DNA of 64,000 bases from Caldifarciminota bacterium (GTDB lineage: Bacteria > Hydrothermota > Hydrothermia > UBA1063 > CAJXJZ01). Positions 1,815 to 55,581 of the stretch are shown here, in pieces. Both the position numbers and the translations under genes were made by a program. Numbering within the stretch: the first letter of the stretch is position 1; every line of letters begins with the position of its first letter. Below the pieces are notes generated by a model that was not told where the DNA came from, did no database searches, and worked only from the letters and a program-made list of their open reading frames with translations. The stretch spans positions 1 to 64,000 of the forward strand of contig JALSNX010000026.1 in assembly GCA_026986775.1 (NCBI GenBank), read 5' to 3'.

Positions 1815-1843
1815 TTGACAATTCAACTCATTCGTTGCATAAT
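1815..1843 (+). promoter_or_regulatory. Sigma-70-type promoter of the 1.9-5.5 kb secreted-protein locus
   Basis: TTGACA at 1815-1820, a 17-nt spacer and CATAAT at 1838-1843 predict a start near 1850. This is 19 nt before the ATG at 1869, which has a strong SD (GGGGAGGTG). The promoter overlaps an in-frame upstream TTG at 1815, so that TTG is not the translation start. Confidence 0.75.
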
Positions 1844-1868
1844 ATTGAAAGCAAACGGGGAGGTGTAT

Positions 1869-2414
1869 ATGAAAAAGTGGCTTATACCTGTAATAATAGG
1901 CGTGTGGGCTGTAAGTCTGAATGCAGGGCTTAGTTTTGGCATAGCCCCAGGGGCTACTCTCAATGATAGTGTCAGGGTCCATATTGTAATCCCTTCAATA
2001 ATTGGTTTATATGTGAGTACCGATTCAGTAGTATTTGATTTTAATGTCTATGTCAGCAATGGAACCTATCCTCCCTCTTCTTTCCCTGCCTATTATGACC
2101 CCACTACAGGTACTGCTGAAAATCCTAATGGTGTAGGGGTTAGAGTGTTTTCAAACTCTCCTACATACACATGGCATCTTGAAACGTGGGGAAGTGGTGA
2201 TTTCAGCACCACTGTGACCCTTGACCAGCTTGAATATTCTCCTCGTGGTGCTGCTACATGGTCTTCATTTTCTACAACACAGACTGAAATAGCCACTGGA
2301 GGAAAGACCGGTGGTTGGGCTAACAACGACCAGGATTACAGATTCAGGGCTGAAGCAGATGACGAACCAGTAGATGCAGGAGTGTATATTTATTACAGGT
2401 TATACGCCAACTGA
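1869..2414 (+). CDS. Secreted beta-rich subunit-like protein A
   Basis: A 181-residue protein with an N-terminal signal peptide (MKKWLIPVIIGVWAVSL..., cleavage likely near residue 20). The start at 1869 follows the SD GGGGAGGTG. The mature part is rich in Ser/Thr/Val/Tyr and looks all-beta (VHIVIPSIIGLYV, VVFDFNVYV, TYTWHLETWGSG). It ends with a DDEP motif and a final strand, GVYIYYRLYAN. The next gene has the same tail plan (ESDDEP...IYIRFYGL), so the two look like diverged paralogues. No enzyme motif is visible. As first gene of an operon with a chaperone-like and a barrel protein, it may be a surface-fibre or surface-layer subunit. That role is inference. Confidence 0.7.
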   Translation: MKKWLIPVIIGVWAVSLNAGLSFGIAPGATLNDSVRVHIVIPSIIGLYVSTDSVVFDFNVYVSNGTYPPSSFPAYYDPTTGTAENPNGVGVRVFSNSPTYTWHLETWGSGDFSTTVTLDQLEYSPRGAATWSSFSTTQTEIATGGKTGGWANNDQDYRFRAEADDEPVDAGVYIYYRLYAN

Positions 2415-2436
2415 GCTATTATCAGGGAGGGGAGGT

Positions 2437-2991
2437 ATGAGATATAAAATCATACTTCCCCTCCTTATTGTTTTTTTTACAGTGTGTTTTCCCCACAAAG
2501 TCCAGGCAATAAGTATTATCATTTTATCAGTTGATAAAGGCAATTCTAATGTGGAACTTACATTTGATTTAGGAAATAGCCCTGACTTCCCACCTCCTCA
2601 ACTACCGGCATGTTACTACCCATCTCAGGGAACCCAGACAAACTCCAAAGGTATATACATTGAAGTAAGGGTTATAAATATTTTCGGTCAATCAATCTCA
2701 AATGCCTATCTTGATATTAAGGCGTATCCTAATCCCTCTGCTTCTGTAACCTGTGATCAGATTTACTGGACAATTACCCCCACAACCCTTCCCTCACCCG
2801 GCACTGAACCACAACCTCCATGGACACCTCTCAGCCTGAACTGGGATAATGTTGATATTATCCCGATAGGACGGAGAAGCATTTACAGGGAATATTATAT
2901 GGATATGTGCTTTAAACTTGAAAGTGACGATGAACCCACTCCACCTTCTGGCATAGAGACAACAATATATATAAGGTTTTATGGACTATGA
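2437..2991 (+). CDS. Secreted beta-rich subunit-like protein B
   Basis: A 184-residue protein. The start at ATG 2437 follows the strong SD GGGAGGGGAGGT; an upstream ATG at 2374 lies inside the preceding gene. The signal peptide is MRYKIILPLLIVFFTVCF..., cleaved near KVQA. The mature part is Pro/Ser/Thr-rich with predicted beta strands and two widely spaced cysteines (TCDQIYW and MDMCFKL). The tail (ESDDEPTPPSG...IYIRFYGL) parallels that of the preceding gene. It overlaps the next gene by 4 nt (ATGA), which indicates translational coupling. Function is unknown; it may be a second structural subunit. Confidence 0.7.
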   Translation: MRYKIILPLLIVFFTVCFPHKVQAISIIILSVDKGNSNVELTFDLGNSPDFPPPQLPACYYPSQGTQTNSKGIYIEVRVINIFGQSISNAYLDIKAYPNPSASVTCDQIYWTITPTTLPSPGTEPQPPWTPLSLNWDNVDIIPIGRRSIYREYYMDMCFKLESDDEPTPPSGIETTIYIRFYGL

Positions 2992-3704
2992 ATGGTTTAA
3001 TTTATATATTTATCCTTATATCACAGGGTTTTATGGTACAGCCGGGCCGAATAGAGGTTGAGGCTGTTCCAGGACAGAGTATAACAAAGAGGTTTATAAT
3101 TACCAATATTTCTCAGGATACAATATTCTTGCGCACCCATGTTGAGAACTTTACTCAGGATTCATTTGGGAAAACCATCTTTTCTCCTTACGAGGGTTCT
3201 GATGTTATTATAAACCCTTCGGAATTTTCCGTACCTCCAGGTGATAATTATACAGTGAGGGTTACAGTAAAATCACCAGATGACTTAAATGAAGAACGCT
3301 GGTATATGATAATTTTTTCACAGATACCACCTCCTCTTGAACAATTTGCAGCGATTAAATTTGTTAGAGAAATAGGTGTCCCATTTTATCTTATACCGAT
3401 AGGCGCTTTGCCAGAATTTGACATTGATACATCATTTTTACACGGTGATACTCTCTATTTCAGGCTGAAAAACAGTGGTTTGAGACACATAAGGGCACGG
3501 GGTATTTTCAGGGTATTCAATATAGACAATCAGCAAACCCCCGTTATAGAAGAAGAAGTTAAGGGTATTTTCGTTCTGCCTGAGAGAAGTATTTATAAAC
3601 CATTTGTCATTGATTCCTTACCTTCGGGAAAGTATATAGCCCGATTTCGGGTTGATTTTGGCGGACCATATGCCATAGAGGGCGTTAAATCATTTTCCCG
3701 TTAA
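2988..3704 (+). CDS. Periplasmic PapD-like/chaperone-like protein
   Basis: A 238-residue secreted protein with a short signal peptide (MNGLIYIFILISQGF). The first domain (about 20-125) has an immunoglobulin-like pattern common to pilus chaperones and MSP/PapD-like folds: an opening strand IEVEAVPGQSITKRFIITN, then strands with NPSEFSVPPGDNYTVRVTV and WYMIIFSQ. The second part (130-238) is also beta-rich (GDTLYFRLKNSG, FVIDSLPSGKYIARFRVDFGG). Classical FGS/FGL chaperone motifs are not obvious, so this is a resemblance of architecture. It sits between two secreted subunit-like proteins and an outer-membrane barrel, the gene order expected of a chaperone-usher system. Confidence 0.55.
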   Translation: MNGLIYIFILISQGFMVQPGRIEVEAVPGQSITKRFIITNISQDTIFLRTHVENFTQDSFGKTIFSPYEGSDVIINPSEFSVPPGDNYTVRVTVKSPDDLNEERWYMIIFSQIPPPLEQFAAIKFVREIGVPFYLIPIGALPEFDIDTSFLHGDTLYFRLKNSGLRHIRARGIFRVFNIDNQQTPVIEEEVKGIFVLPERSIYKPFVIDSLPSGKYIARFRVDFGGPYAIEGVKSFSR

Positions 3705-3705
3705 C

Positions 3706-5454
3706 ATGATTGTTTTTCTGCTTTTTTCTCTATCAGGACAGATGAATATGGGATTTTATTCTTATGGAGAAAAACCTTTTTTGGGAAATTACAGAAACGT
3801 AAATCTATTTTTGCAAAAAAGGGAAACACAGTTCAACCTCTCTTTGAATTTTTCTCCTAAACGTGATAGAACCTTAAGTTCTATATATCTGAAATTTCCA
3901 ATAGATGCTCTCGGCTATATTCACATGGGTTATACAAGACTCAATGCGGGAAAACTCACGGTATTGCCACGTGATTATATAGGACTTAACTTTTTCAATC
4001 CTGAATTTTCCTTTGGCGTATTTAAAAGGAATGAAAGAAATGGACTTAATACTTATACTTTGTTGACATCCATAAAAAGAGGTCATCAGTATAACAACTT
4101 GCTCATCACGAAAGACGATACCATGAATGCTGTTATAGATTACGTGGCAGGCTATAATACCCACAACTTTCAAATGGAAGCAGTATTATCCCTTTCACGG
4201 TATCTGTCAATGGCCCTTTATGGAAGAAAGACTGTAAGAGGAGAAAAATCCTCTCTTTCTGTGAATATAAGCAAATACTTTAAAAACTTTTATACGGGAA
4301 CAAGAAGGGTGAATCCGTTTTTATCAATCAACTCTTCGTTTTCAATAAGAATGCTGGAAAATCTTTTTTATGTGAATCAGGCGAATTTCATGGACAGGTC
4401 AGGACACAGAAGCATTCTTTTCAACAATAGACTTATATATAACTCGGAAAAATTTGGTGTATTTAATCTGCATTACAGGCATGCAACTTCTGGTATACCG
4501 GGGTTTGCATACAGAAAAAACTTCCAATCCATAATGTTTAACCTTTCCATAGAACCCGGAAACAGAACTTATTCTTTCACTTTCAGAAGAAAGCCTCTGA
4601 CAGTTAAATTAACGAGATACATACAGGATGAGGATGTAATGTCAAAAATTTACACTTCTTTAGACTATGGTAAATTCCAGTCGTCAATAGAATACTTTGT
4701 CTCCTCATCAAGACAGTACATTGTATCAATAAATACCATTAGATTTCATGGAATTAACTTTTTTGAGAATATATACTTTTATAGCCACGATACCACAAAG
4801 AATGTTCGTTTTACTACTGGTCTTAATATATTTTCTCCACTCAAAATACCCGCCCTTTCCACAATAAAAGGCCGCGTCTATTTCGATAAAAACGCAAATG
4901 GTTTATTTGACGAAGAAGATGAACCATTGGATAGTATTAAAATTATACTTGACAATGAAAAATACACTTATACAGATGAAAATGGTAACTTTGCTTTTAA
5001 ATATGTATCACGGGGACATCATTCAGTAAAATTAGACCTCGGACTTATGCCTGCAGAAGTTGGTGCAACAGAAGGTGATGCAAAAATGGTTAAAACAGGT
5101 TTTATGGACACAAAATATATTGAGTTTAGAGTATCTGCACTTGGAGAAGTTTCAGGTCGTCTTTTCATTGACAACAATGTAAATGGTGTGTTTGATGACC
5201 ACGATATTCCTCTTGAGGGATGTATTGTGAGTTTAAACGGGAAAAGAACGTGGACATGGGAGGAGGGCAAATACAGATTTTCAAATGTACCACCCGGGTC
5301 TTACAGGGTTAAAGTGGAATACTGCCCTCAAAAACTCACGCCACTGAATAAAAACTTCTATGACATTTATGTGATGCCCAAAGATAAGATAAAAGGCCTT
5401 GACTTTCCTTTTATACAGGGAGAGGAAATAAAGGTAAAAGTCAAGGAATTTTGA
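3706..5454 (+). CDS. Outer-membrane barrel with two SdrD_B/CNA_B-like domains (usher-like)
   Basis: A 582-residue protein with a short signal peptide (MIVFLLFSLSGQ). Residues about 15-380 alternate polar and hydrophobic residues with many aromatic ends (NMGFYSYG, SLSRYLSMALYG, FNLHYRHATSG, YSFTFRRKPL), as in an outer-membrane beta-barrel. Two prealbumin-like domains follow: 386-445 (KGRVYFDKNANGLFDEEDEP...) and 478-540 (SGRLFIDNNVNGVFDDHDIP...). Both carry the Asp/Asn-rich D-x-N-x-NGxFD calcium-type loop of SdrD_B repeats. It starts 1 nt after the chaperone-like gene stops. By position and plan it could export or anchor the two upstream subunits. True ushers are larger (about 800 aa) and have a plug domain, which I cannot see here. 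Confidence 0.55.
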   Translation: MIVFLLFSLSGQMNMGFYSYGEKPFLGNYRNVNLFLQKRETQFNLSLNFSPKRDRTLSSIYLKFPIDALGYIHMGYTRLNAGKLTVLPRDYIGLNFFNPEFSFGVFKRNERNGLNTYTLLTSIKRGHQYNNLLITKDDTMNAVIDYVAGYNTHNFQMEAVLSLSRYLSMALYGRKTVRGEKSSLSVNISKYFKNFYTGTRRVNPFLSINSSFSIRMLENLFYVNQANFMDRSGHRSILFNNRLIYNSEKFGVFNLHYRHATSGIPGFAYRKNFQSIMFNLSIEPGNRTYSFTFRRKPLTVKLTRYIQDEDVMSKIYTSLDYGKFQSSIEYFVSSSRQYIVSINTIRFHGINFFENIYFYSHDTTKNVRFTTGLNIFSPLKIPALSTIKGRVYFDKNANGLFDEEDEPLDSIKIILDNEKYTYTDENGNFAFKYVSRGHHSVKLDLGLMPAEVGATEGDAKMVKTGFMDTKYIEFRVSALGEVSGRLFIDNNVNGVFDDHDIPLEGCIVSLNGKRTWTWEEGKYRFSNVPPGSYRVKVEYCPQKLTPLNKNFYDIYVMPKDKIKGLDFPFIQGEEIKVKVKEF

Positions 5455-5527: not shown

Positions 5528-6790
5528 ATGAAAACACTTATTCAAACCCTGAGAGAGGGCACCATACCAGATGACCTTGTGGAAATAGCTCAAAAGGAAG
5601 GCATTGACCCGCAGGAACTTGTAAAAAACATATTGAGTGGTGAAGCTGTAGTAATTGGATATAGAACCAGAAGAGGGCCAAGGGTTATAGGAAAAGGAAC
5701 AAGAGTTAAGGTAAATGCAAATATAGGAACAAGCACACTACGCTCCAGCTTAAAAGAGGAAAGAGAAAAACTTCACGCTGCTCTTTCTGCAAAAACTGAT
5801 GCTGTAATGGACCTGTCTCTATCTGATGATCTGGTAGAAATAAGAAAAATGGTTCTTTCAGAATCCACTGTTCCGGTGGGAACTGTTCCCATTTATGAAG
5901 CAGCCACACTTGCAAGAATCAAAAGAGGTGCTGTTGTAAGACTTGACACAGAAGAATTCTTTGATGTAATAGAAAGACAGCTTGAGGAAGGTGTTGACTT
6001 TATTACCGTTCATGCAGGTGTCGTAAAAAAATTTATTGATAAGTATGGAAAGGGTAAAAGAATAGGTGGTATAGTATCAAGAGGTGGTGCTATTACTGCT
6101 GCCTATATTAAAAACACAGGCCAGGAAAATCCTCTTTATGAACACTTTGACCGTCTCCTTGACATTGCTAAAAAATACGACGCAGTGCTTTCTCTTGGCG
6201 ACGGAATGAGGCCGGGAGCCATACATGATGCAGGTGATATGTTTGAGGTTGGGGAACAGGAGGTACTGGGAGAACTGCAGAAGCGTGCGCTTGAAAGAGG
6301 AGTTATGAGCATGATCGAGGGGCCGGGACACGTTCCTTTACACCTTGTAAAACCTGCAGTGGAAAGAATCAAAAAACTTACCAACAATGCACCACTTTAC
6401 CTTCTTGGGCCAATTGTCACAGATGTTGCACCAGGATATGACCATATAACATCTGCAATAGGGGCTGCAATGGCCGCCTGGTCTGGTGCTGATTTTATAT
6501 GTTATGTTACACCAGCAGAACATCTTGGACTTCCCACCAAAGAGGATGTCCATGAAGGGGTAATTGCTTCAAGAATTGCAGCACATGCCGCCGATATAGC
6601 AAGGGGATTAAAAGGTGCAGATGAATGGGATAGAGAAATATCCATTGCACGAAAATCCCTTGACTGGGACAGGCAGATAGAACTCTCCATAGACCCCGAA
6701 AAGGCGGCAAAAATGAGAAAAGAACGTTCAGGAGAAGGGCCGTGTACCATGTGTGGTGAATACTGTGTATTTTTAATCTTAGGAGACTAA
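5528..6790 (+). CDS. thiC: Phosphomethylpyrimidine synthase ThiC
   Basis: A 420-residue radical-SAM enzyme of thiamin synthesis that turns aminoimidazole ribotide into HMP-phosphate. Recognisable motifs include VNANIGTS (about residue 59), VDFITVHAGV, SRGGAI, SLGDGMRPG, MIEGPGHVP and DFICYVTPAEHLGLP. The C-terminal cluster ligands are C406-x2-C409-x3-C413 (CTMCGEYC), one residue shorter than the CX2CX4C of the E. coli enzyme. The length fits the short anaerobic/archaeal-type ThiC that lacks the long N-terminal extension. The SD is AAGGAGG before ATG 5528. thi4 follows after 10 nt, so pyrimidine and thiazole branches are co-expressed. Confidence 0.97.
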   Translation: MKTLIQTLREGTIPDDLVEIAQKEGIDPQELVKNILSGEAVVIGYRTRRGPRVIGKGTRVKVNANIGTSTLRSSLKEEREKLHAALSAKTDAVMDLSLSDDLVEIRKMVLSESTVPVGTVPIYEAATLARIKRGAVVRLDTEEFFDVIERQLEEGVDFITVHAGVVKKFIDKYGKGKRIGGIVSRGGAITAAYIKNTGQENPLYEHFDRLLDIAKKYDAVLSLGDGMRPGAIHDAGDMFEVGEQEVLGELQKRALERGVMSMIEGPGHVPLHLVKPAVERIKKLTNNAPLYLLGPIVTDVAPGYDHITSAIGAAMAAWSGADFICYVTPAEHLGLPTKEDVHEGVIASRIAAHAADIARGLKGADEWDREISIARKSLDWDRQIELSIDPEKAAKMRKERSGEGPCTMCGEYCVFLILGD

Positions 6791-52902: not shown

Positions 52903-55581
52903 TCACACTTCAGGTTTCAAGAACATTTCCGATATAAAAATGGACGGCTCATTACGATACCTTCCATATCTAAATTTAGGATAGGATAAGTAGAGTTTAT
53001 CCTGCGAGCGGGTAATTGCAACGTAAAATAGCCTTCTTTCCTCTTCTATATCCTCATCCTTACCATACCTGCTTAAAAGAGGAAATCTTCCCTCATAAAG
53101 CCCAACCACAAAGACGCATGGAAATTCAAGACCCTTGGCCTGATGAACGGTCATCAATTTAACACCACGCTGACTCTGAGATTCAATTCCAAGAGTTCTC
53201 AAAAGTGCCACATCGTTCTGCAACTTCCTGTGTTCTCCCCTTTTGTATCTGCCGATAAACTCAAGAAATTCCAGAACATTTTCTCTCTCCTGTATGCGGG
53301 CAGAACTTCTTGCCCGTTCAAGCCTTTCAAAATATCCAAATTGCTCAAGAAAACTCTCCACTACCTCAAGGGGTGTCAATTCAGAAAGCAATTTCTCATC
53401 ATAACTTTTTGCAAACTGTTTAAGAACTGAAATGGCGGAATCCGCATTTTCTTTTTCCTCCATGCTTAATCTAATTTTAGTTCTCCTGCCTGTAAATTTT
53501 GAAGCAACATACCTTGAAGTTTTTCCAGAAAGACCAATGAACCTTCTTGCAATAAGTTCCACATCACCATAAGAAGCATTTTTTTCTGCGAGTTTGAGAA
53601 TACCTATTATTGACCGTATTTCTTCTCTCTCATAAAAACCACCTTCACTCTGAAGATTGTAAGGAATATCCTCTCTCATAAAGGTCTCCTCAAAATATCT
53701 GGAATAGGCATTCACCCTGTAAATTACGCTTATGTCGTCATACTGTAAGCCCTTCTCCACTTCTTCCTTGATTGTTTTTGCCACCCATGAGGCTTCTTCC
53801 TCTTCTGAAGTGGCTTCTTTTAAAAGTATAACCCCTTCTGTTTTAGCCATGGACACCATTGGCTTTTTAACCCTTTTTTTGTTAAACGATATGAGTCTTT
53901 CAGCAGTTTCAAGTATCCTCTGTGGAACCCTGAAACTCGTGGTCAGATAGAACCTTTTAACTTTTCCCTCATAGTACCTTTCAAGTTCTTTAATAAATTC
54001 AGGATTTGCCCCGCGAAATCCATAAATTGACTGGTCATCATCACCCGTCAAAAACAGATTTCCATGCTTTTCTGAAAGAATCATAAGCAGGCGAAATTGT
54101 GCCGGGTCAATGTCCTGAAACTCATCAACCAGAATATATCTAAATCTTGATGTAAATTCATCCCGTATGTCTTCAAATTCTTCAAGGACTTTAACGGCAT
54201 ACATGAGTATGTCACCATAGTCCACCATATTCCTTGACATGAGGAGATTCTGATAACTCATATAAACCGTTGCTATACGCTTTTCCCATGACGTCTTTGC
54301 CAGTTTTCTGTAATCTTCCGGGCTTATAAGATTCGTCTTTGCACGGTCAATGGCACGCTTTATACCCTTTGCTCTCCCCGAAGATGAAAGGTTCTCAATT
54401 ATAGAAAGCGCATCCTCAGGGGAAATGATTACAAGGTCTTCCTCACGGAATCCCAATCTATCAGCACCAGCCAGGAAAATTCTCAAAGCCATCTGGTGAA
54501 ATGTACCTGCCCACAGTTTTCTGGTAGCAAGTTCGCCCAGTAAGGACGCCACTTCCATTTTAAGATTGTAAGCGGCTTTTCCAGTAAAAGTAATCGCAAG
54601 AATATTTTCAGGTTTTACATGTTTTTCCCTGATTAAATATACAATACGGCGTGCAAGGGTATAAGTCTTGCCAGTACCAGCACTACCTATAATCAGCACA
54701 ACACCATCGCCATCAAGTACCGCTTCTTCCTGTGCTGGAGTAAGACCTGAAAGAATTTCGCTTTTTTTCGCTCTATCCTCAAGTAATCCAGAGATTTCAA
54801 GCATGTAACCACTCTTTTTAAGTGCATTTATTAACTCCTCACATGACTGAAATCTATCATCAGGCCTTCTTGACATGGCTTTCTTTACCAGATACCAGAG
54901 GTCAGGCGAAAGCCCCCTTATTTTTCTGAGTTTTCCATGCAATATTCTCTGTCTGAGTTCCTCAAAAGACTCACCTTCATAAGGTAATCTCCCTGATAGC
55001 ATTTCATATAAAATAACACCTATTGAGTAAATGTCACTTCTTTTATCATACTCTCCCTTCCATGCTTCAGGTGACATATACACAGGTGTTCCTGCAACAG
55101 ACAGCGAAAGGGAAAGGCCTGTTTTTATTCTGGCAAGACCAAAATCAGTTATTTTAACCTTACCATCATCTGTTAAGAGTATATTCTCAGGTTTTAAGTC
55201 TCTATGCAGAATACCCTTTCTGTGAGCATACCCAACCCCTTGAAGTATCATCTCAACAATAGAAACTGCCTTTTCCATGCCAACTTTTCTCAAACGGTCC
55301 ATATAACTCCTCAAAGACTCACCTTCAACATACTCCATGGTAAGAACAATTCTTCCATCTATCTCCTCAAGGGAATAAAATCTCACTATGTTGGGATGCT
55401 CTAAAGAAGCAAGAACCTTTGCTTCCTGCTTCAACATTTCTATGTCTTTTGCCCTCTGTCTTGAGATTTTAATGGCAAACTCCCGCTCAATAAGCGTGTC
55501 AACTGCTAAAAACACATCGGAAAACTGCCCACCTCCTATCCACTTTATGATTCTGTACTTTCCCAGTCTATCACCTAACAT
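52903..55581 (-). CDS. Fusion of Hanks-type Ser/Thr protein kinase and UvrD/PcrA-type helicase
   Basis: An 892-residue single open frame. Residues 1-262 are a complete eukaryotic-like kinase: glycine loop IGGGQFSDV (15-23), AIK lysine K38, alphaC Glu53, HRDLKPEN (126-133; catalytic D128), DFG (146-148) and SPE (170-172). Residues about 277-892 are an SF1A helicase: Q motif LTPAQEEAV (280-288), Walker A GSAGTGKT (299-306), TFTGKAA, DEFQD (486-490), GDDDQSIYGFRGA (513-525), TTSFRVP, VHQAKGLEFP and RLFYVAITR. Both catalytic sets look intact. No frameshift or stop separates them, and TATAAT lies 6 nt before the ATG. I do not know of a described protein of this type. A kinase that controls helicase loading or phosphorylates DNA-repair partners is plausible but inferred. 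Confidence 0.93.
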   Translation of the reverse strand: MLGDRLGKYRIIKWIGGGQFSDVFLAVDTLIEREFAIKISRQRAKDIEMLKQEAKVLASLEHPNIVRFYSLEEIDGRIVLTMEYVEGESLRSYMDRLRKVGMEKAVSIVEMILQGVGYAHRKGILHRDLKPENILLTDDGKVKITDFGLARIKTGLSLSLSVAGTPVYMSPEAWKGEYDKRSDIYSIGVILYEMLSGRLPYEGESFEELRQRILHGKLRKIRGLSPDLWYLVKKAMSRRPDDRFQSCEELINALKKSGYMLEISGLLEDRAKKSEILSGLTPAQEEAVLDGDGVVLIIGSAGTGKTYTLARRIVYLIREKHVKPENILAITFTGKAAYNLKMEVASLLGELATRKLWAGTFHQMALRIFLAGADRLGFREEDLVIISPEDALSIIENLSSSGRAKGIKRAIDRAKTNLISPEDYRKLAKTSWEKRIATVYMSYQNLLMSRNMVDYGDILMYAVKVLEEFEDIRDEFTSRFRYILVDEFQDIDPAQFRLLMILSEKHGNLFLTGDDDQSIYGFRGANPEFIKELERYYEGKVKRFYLTTSFRVPQRILETAERLISFNKKRVKKPMVSMAKTEGVILLKEATSEEEEASWVAKTIKEEVEKGLQYDDISVIYRVNAYSRYFEETFMREDIPYNLQSEGGFYEREEIRSIIGILKLAEKNASYGDVELIARRFIGLSGKTSRYVASKFTGRRTKIRLSMEEKENADSAISVLKQFAKSYDEKLLSELTPLEVVESFLEQFGYFERLERARSSARIQERENVLEFLEFIGRYKRGEHRKLQNDVALLRTLGIESQSQRGVKLMTVHQAKGLEFPCVFVVGLYEGRFPLLSRYGKDEDIEEERRLFYVAITRSQDKLYLSYPKFRYGRYRNEPSIFISEMFLKPEV

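Follow-up and report, generated by a model that had tools for sequence, protein, structure and literature searches.

In the 64,000-nucleotide window analyzed here, positions 1 to 64,000 of contig JALSNX010000026.1 from a Caldifarciminota bacterium, four co-directional genes at positions 1869-5454 of the + strand encode two small secreted proteins (SubA and SubB), a chaperone and an outer-membrane barrel protein. This locus probably specifies a divergent pathway of the chaperone-usher type, in which a minimal, plugless usher-like outlet would give rise to a fiber or surface coat. Computation established the gene set, the homology of the chaperone, the homology of SubA with SubB, the fold class of the barrel protein and the conservation of the cassette.

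Chaperone-usher machinery builds adhesive surface fibers in E. coli. Such fibers are known mainly from Proteobacteria, and their annotation depends on the Pfam usher family PF00577. Here, the same plan was found, with what seems to be a minimal usher, in lineages where PF00577 has no match. This raises the question of what an usher cannot do without; in this case, neither the N-terminal domain nor the plug seems to be needed. The host belongs to a little-known group of heat-loving bacteria, the candidate phylum WOR-3, and standard searches miss the cassette in Deinococcus and Thermus. Some of the Deinococcus relatives lie on plasmids of cultured strains, annotated as hypothetical, so that laboratory testing is feasible.

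Proposed pathway and its components

Donor-strand complementation and exchange, the order of the subunits, the role of the C-terminal domains and the existence of a fiber are the parts of the pathway that we infer. Sec export would precede assembly. The G1 strand of the PapD-type chaperone would then complete the unfinished beta-sandwich of SubA and SubB, and the chaperone would pass the subunits to an outer-membrane usher-like pore, the large barrel without N-terminal domain and plug. Two periplasmic calcium-binding SdrD_B domains would replace the usher C-terminal domains 1 and 2 (CTD1 and CTD2) and receive the chaperone-subunit complexes. SubB, which has no N-terminal extension, would emerge first as the tip, and SubA would polymerize by donor-strand exchange via its N-terminal extension, yielding a surface fiber or coat.

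The chaperone (P0003) had been described in an earlier, sequence-only reading of this DNA as an Ig-like periplasmic protein, and it passed the Pfam PapD_N model at the cut-off, with 23.1 versus 23 bits. This PF00345 match is marginal on its own, and PF00345 matched in no other WOR-3 genome. A 15-row family alignment compared with seven E. coli K-12 chaperones gave E=2e-6, with both domains covered. In comparisons with single chaperones, EcpB gave the best match (E=9.8e-6), FimC gave 0.11 and YehC did not match the family profile, which points to an affinity with the non-classical type. As judged from sequence, the chaperone is a true PapD relative and, among the E. coli chaperones compared, is nearest to the non-classical EcpB. 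A proline in strand D1, Pro60 of EcpB, is invariant across chaperone-usher chaperones, and the donor residues of EcpB are Ala111-Ile117 (PMC4654587). P77 of our chaperone aligns with Pro60 and is invariant in family alignments A1 and A8. Similarly, the domain-2 arginine of non-classical chaperones (EcpB Arg148, CsuC Arg174) is present as the nearly invariant R169, which aligns with Arg148, the carboxylate-anchor residue of EcpB.

SubA and SubB had been read as related secreted proteins, and comparison of their profiles demonstrated that they are homologous (E=4.5e-36 over 143 columns). They were also said to share DDEP tails. The two proteins do share this motif, and far more besides; DDEP is a loop motif and not a tail, since the C-terminus lies approximately 15-20 residues further on. 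Once the presumed signal peptide has been removed, SubB begins about 23 mature residues into SubA, and those SubA residues end in the alternating sequence VRVHIVI. In chaperone-usher systems, such an N-terminal extension is the donor strand, and the tip subunit is without it. Since SubB has no extension, as is the case for chaperone-usher tip subunits, we infer by analogy that SubA may be the polymerizing subunit and SubB the tip. A search of the PDB with the SubA profile returned no known pilin. Structure comparison of SubA listed EcpA, BPSL1626, FimG, AfaE-3 and DraE at Z 3.4-4.6, where they tied with toxin domains and jelly rolls of viruses, and these matches were not used as evidence.

The predicted model of the barrel protein (P0004; mean predicted local distance difference test (pLDDT) score 82.5) contained approximately 26 strands followed by two beta-sandwich domains. 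It shows the outer-membrane barrel that had been proposed and gives good support for a large barrel. In a Foldseek search against solved structures, the best twelve matches were all FimD or PapC (E=1e-15 to 5e-8), covering the barrel and the C-terminal domains, and the next were LptD (3e-6) and BtuB (5e-6). VIA-align gave Z=16.8 for PapC over model residues 15-570 and about 15.7 for FimD over residues 9-569; it gave 15.5 for LptD and, for the barrel alone, 17.6 for MtrB. We regard the protein as usher-like because of the barrel and the C-terminal domains taken together, and because of the gene context.

Both SdrD_B-like domains noted previously at the C-terminus were found by Pfam (E=1.2e-16), and the calcium-binding motif DxNxNGxxD is conserved in each. 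They match the C-terminal domains of FimD and PapC in fold and position, and they come after an even-stranded barrel. According to the model, they should thus be periplasmic, where the C-terminal domains of ushers sit, which argues against an external stalk. The suggestion that the barrel carries its own external calcium-binding stalk was therefore rejected on topology. Usher C-terminal domains bind chaperone-subunit complexes in the periplasm. F582 of the barrel protein is invariant in alignments A4 and A6, and the K-x-F C-terminus is conserved in WOR-3 despite its disorder in the model.

The four genes had been placed behind one promoter with 4-nucleotide or 1-nucleotide junctions. A single strong promoter-like site was indeed found ahead of SubA (Table 1). 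The SubB and chaperone genes overlap by 4 nucleotides (ATGA) and the chaperone and barrel genes are spaced by 1 nucleotide, as described; the gap between SubA and SubB is 22 nucleotides, and there the description did not apply.

Conservation in WOR-3 and Deinococcota

The window belongs to a 2.18-Mb genome with relatives in candidate division WOR-3, among them Hydrothermus (Caldifarciminota as phylum in the NCBI taxonomy). Related loci were found using the barrel protein and the chaperone as queries, the surrounding DNA was read, and all reading frames were scanned locally with hidden Markov models. The order SubA, SubB, chaperone, barrel was found again in the same genus and in several other lineages. 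Other WOR-3 lineages have the order SubB, SubA, chaperone, barrel, and at some loci SubB was undetected or a subunit gene lies downstream of the barrel gene. The recurrence of the same gene order in many relatives indicates that the arrangement is far from chance. At E<=0.001, 41 of 147 WOR-3 genomes contained the chaperone family, and the match was strong in about 30 of them.

At nearly all single-chaperone WOR-3 loci with enough contig, the barrel gene comes immediately after the chaperone gene, and the two often overlap by 1-4 nucleotides. The exceptions are a second, orphan copy without a barrel gene (L093) and a locus with an extra subunit gene between the two (L089); two further loci (L091 and L092) reach contig ends, and the barrel frame is partial there. 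Flanking genes are the same within the genus, which suggests that the cassette has been inherited vertically there and is not mobile.

In one lineage (L028, L032, L077, L078, L079), the operon lies between genes resembling sigma-54-type response regulators, and a small receiver-like protein of about 125 residues adjoins it, which suggests that the operon is under two-component control in that lineage. At another locus, on a short contig (L033 1-1549, G002:C127), the barrel gene is split over two overlapping frames with a stop inside the match. This may be a real break or an assembly error.

A related set, chaperone-subunit-barrel, was read at three loci, one in Thermaceae and two on Deinococcus plasmids. 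The Deinococcus copies sit on large plasmids and are annotated as hypothetical. Compared with those of WOR-3, the Deinococcota barrel proteins have extra N-terminal and C-terminal regions. Profile comparisons linked the WOR-3 and Deinococcota sets through their C-terminal domains (2.5e-19) and subunits (7e-12), and the chaperone profile matched 56 of 111 Deinococcota genomes.

We also observed a second kind of WOR-3 cassette, comprising small secreted proteins, a protein of approximately 510-600 residues with two tandem PapD/WxLIP-like chaperone regions, and then a secretin gene. The secretin gene follows the tandem-chaperone gene at 7 of the 8 double-chaperone loci read, usually with the small secreted proteins preceding, and the secretins of L095 and L096 matched PF00263 (E about 1e-41 to 1e-46). 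Pairing of a chaperone with a secretin would be unusual. If the tandem proteins are also chaperones, this chaperone family has been combined with outlets of more than one kind. A third type, seen at L139 (1919-5892) and L140 (879-5626), has two small secreted proteins, a chaperone-family protein and then a large protein of 662 or 940 residues.

Around the operon in the window itself, tRNA-Leu and tRNA-Cys genes lie upstream in the opposite direction, and the downstream neighbor of the barrel gene is a gene for a 420-residue protein at 5528. Elsewhere in the window, at 52903-55581 on the - strand, an 892-residue frame by eye resembles a fusion of a serine/threonine protein kinase domain with a helicase of the UvrD type.

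Table 1. Positions of the features of the four-gene locus in the window, and of related cassettes in the coordinates of their own loci
Feature	Position	Strand	Basis
Promoter-like site TTGACA-N17-CATAAT, before SubA	1815..1843	+	11/12 consensus matches, best of the region; consensus match only
Ribosome-binding site GGGGAGG of SubA	1857..1863	+	From sequence
SubA (P0001), secreted small subunit, 181 residues; proposed major/polymerizing subunit	1869..2414	+	Family conserved in WOR-3; no Pfam family
SubA residues 20-42, N-terminal extension of the mature protein, GLSFGIAPGATLNDSVRVHIVIP; candidate donor strand with V35/V37/I39/I41 in alternation	1926..1994	+	SubA/SubB profile alignment; predicted strand 31-41, low confidence
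SubB (P0002), homologous secreted subunit without N-terminal extension, 184 residues; proposed tip/initiating subunit	2437..2991	+	Profile alignment
PapD-type periplasmic chaperone (P0003), two Ig-like domains, 238 residues	2988..3704	+	PF00345 E=7.8e-5, at cut-off; profile comparisons
Candidate G1 donor strand, chaperone residues 121-129, alternating I123/F125/R127/I129	3348..3374	+	Aligned to EcpB Ala111-Ile117
Chaperone Arg169, putative subunit-carboxylate anchor, equivalent of EcpB Arg148/CsuC Arg174	3492..3494	+	Alignment
Usher-like outer-membrane protein (P0004), barrel and two SdrD_B domains, 582 residues	3706..5454	+	Pfam, model, structure matches
Barrel region, residues 12-378, ~26 predicted strands	3739..4839	+	Secondary structure of model, structure matches
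First SdrD_B domain, residues 385-464, in place of usher CTD1; invariant DxNxNGxxD (D394, N396, N398, D402)	4858..5097	+	
Second SdrD_B domain, residues 469-571, in place of usher CTD2; D489, N491, N493, D497 motif	5110..5418	+	
Disordered C-terminal tail of P0004, conserved K-x-F end (K580, F582)	5419..5451	+	pLDDT under 50
Deinococcota relatives, barrel protein ~980-1070 residues	L110 4058-9871; L121 4907-10653; L122 4950-10523		
Chaperone-secretin cassettes	L094 261-3206; L095 2157-7264; L096 3273-6983; L134 3037-7300; L135 38-2886; L137 2768-5826; L138 2835-7712		

Weighing of alternative explanations

The sequence-only reading had described a chaperone-usher plan built from unfamiliar parts, and our results agree with both halves of this description. 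The plan is supported by the PapD-type chaperone, the homologous subunits with donor-strand-like features, the large outer-membrane barrel and the conserved operon. As for the parts, sequence searches detected no usher or pilin family, and Pfam, NCBIfam and PHROGs identified no known usher or pilin among the four proteins.

Several results weigh against a chaperone-usher-type pathway. In known systems, chaperone-subunit complexes are bound by the N-terminal domain of the usher. This domain is missing from the barrel protein model, where the first barrel strand already lies at residue 12; the plug is missing as well, the longest gap between barrel strands being about 13 residues. PF00577 had no Pfam match in 11 barrel family members, and it was found in 0 of 147 WOR-3 and 0 of 111 Deinococcota genomes, in a search that matched only E. 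coli in the control set and whose sensitivity to archaic ushers was not checked. The barrel profile showed no similarity to six E. coli K-12 ushers and EcpC, and the likeness of the barrel alone is unspecific, since MtrB, LptD and AlgE score like PapC in VIA-align. No pilin family was matched by the subunits, either by Pfam on family members or by profile comparison with E. coli K-12 pilins; the SubA model is poor (pLDDT 58) and its structure matches were inconclusive. Finally, the strand-F1 Arg89, which anchors the subunit carboxylate in non-classical chaperones, is not conserved; P0003 has Tyr106 at the aligned position, and the residues found elsewhere are not Arg either. We describe the locus as a divergent variant of the chaperone-usher type. 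It is not counted as a member, since searches for the usher family and for two usher domains did not find them.

Some of these results bear equally on the idea that this is an ordinary archaic (sigma) chaperone-usher operon, drifted past the point at which Pfam recognizes its usher and pilins. The chaperone is nearest to a non-classical one and the barrel protein has an usher-like fold, as this idea would have it, and archaic systems are listed from Deinococcus-Thermus (PMC4654587), where the related set occurs. We nevertheless consider it unlikely, given the PF00577 searches, with the limit on archaic ushers stated above, the model without N-terminal domain or plug, and C-terminal domains that are SdrD_B and do not belong to usher C-terminal families. 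In addition, at the positions of the EcpB anchor residues Arg89 and Tyr169, this chaperone family has residues other than Arg and Tyr.

Alternatively, the locus might encode a surface coat similar to that of WxL proteins, in which the chaperone-like protein remains bound for good and completes the subunits at the cell surface or wall. The barrel would then do no more than export or anchor the subunits, and no fiber would be polymerized. For WxL proteins, the sandwich is predicted to be completed by a strand of WxLIP (PMC10599100). In one family alignment, the chaperone family matched Enterococcus EfmWxLIP1 (E=6e-4), and the best E-value of Pfam WxLIP_PGBD in members of the family was 2.3e-6, whereas the second alignment (A8) did not find WxLIP and gave weak matches to FaeE and EcpB. 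We take a relation between the chaperone and WxLIP as a lead, and the locus suggests that PapD chaperones and Gram-positive WxLIP proteins may share an origin. As an account of the locus, however, a WxL-like coat appears improbable: Pfam found no WxL domain in 23 subunit sequences, P0003 ends after domain 2 with no C-terminal membrane helix, and the cassette contains a large outer-membrane barrel.

The least credible explanation, to which we attach very little weight, is that the barrel is a porin or receptor-like outer-membrane anchor and not an outlet. In that case, its SdrD_B domains would face outward as a stalk or adhesin, and the barrel would have the small proteins for partners. Surface adhesins commonly contain SdrD_B domains, and the similar scores of MtrB, LptD and AlgE for the barrel alone would fit a protein of this type. 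That the barrel is constantly linked to subunits and a PapD-type chaperone does not fit, nor does the full-length similarity, which puts ushers first, and domains placed after the last strand of an even-stranded barrel would be periplasmic.

A divergent chaperone-usher-type pathway thus remains our preferred interpretation. A more far-reaching version of it, which we put forward tentatively and with slightly less than even confidence, is that WOR-3 and Deinococcota possess a fourth, separate chaperone-usher-like pathway. It would have a plugless minimal usher in which calcium-binding C-terminal domains do all the recruiting. Its chaperone family would form a link between PapD and the WxLIP of Gram-positive bacteria and, in the same phylum, would also have been coupled to a secretin outlet.

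Comparison with known systems

A limited literature search returned nothing relevant on WOR-3 or SdrD_B with chaperone-usher, on a plug-lacking usher, or on Thermus with PapD and usher. In structure comparison, MtrB and LptD resemble the barrel protein in strand number and barrel fold; their gene neighbors and the two C-terminal domains differ, and they are not paired with PapD-type chaperones. The Gram-positive WxL/WxLIP system (DUF916-DUF3324) is similar in that the chaperone family matches WxLIP sequence and that the predicted action of the WxLIP strand on the WxL sandwich is chaperone-like. In contrast to our locus, that system does not include an outer-membrane barrel, and WxLIP ends in a membrane helix; the subunits here are without a WxL domain.

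Non-classical chaperone-usher systems (EcpAB/EcpC and the archaic Csu) differ from the locus in several respects. Here, the barrel is without the usher N-terminal domain and plug and has about 26 strands instead of 24, the C-terminal domains are SdrD_B, PF00577 does not match, the subunits match no pilin family, and the Arg89 anchor is not conserved. What they have in common is an operon of small subunits, a two-domain PapD-type chaperone and an outer-membrane barrel protein that has two beta-sandwich domains at its C-terminus, together with a chaperone that is related to EcpB (E=9.8e-6) and carries both the invariant proline and the equivalent of EcpB Arg148.

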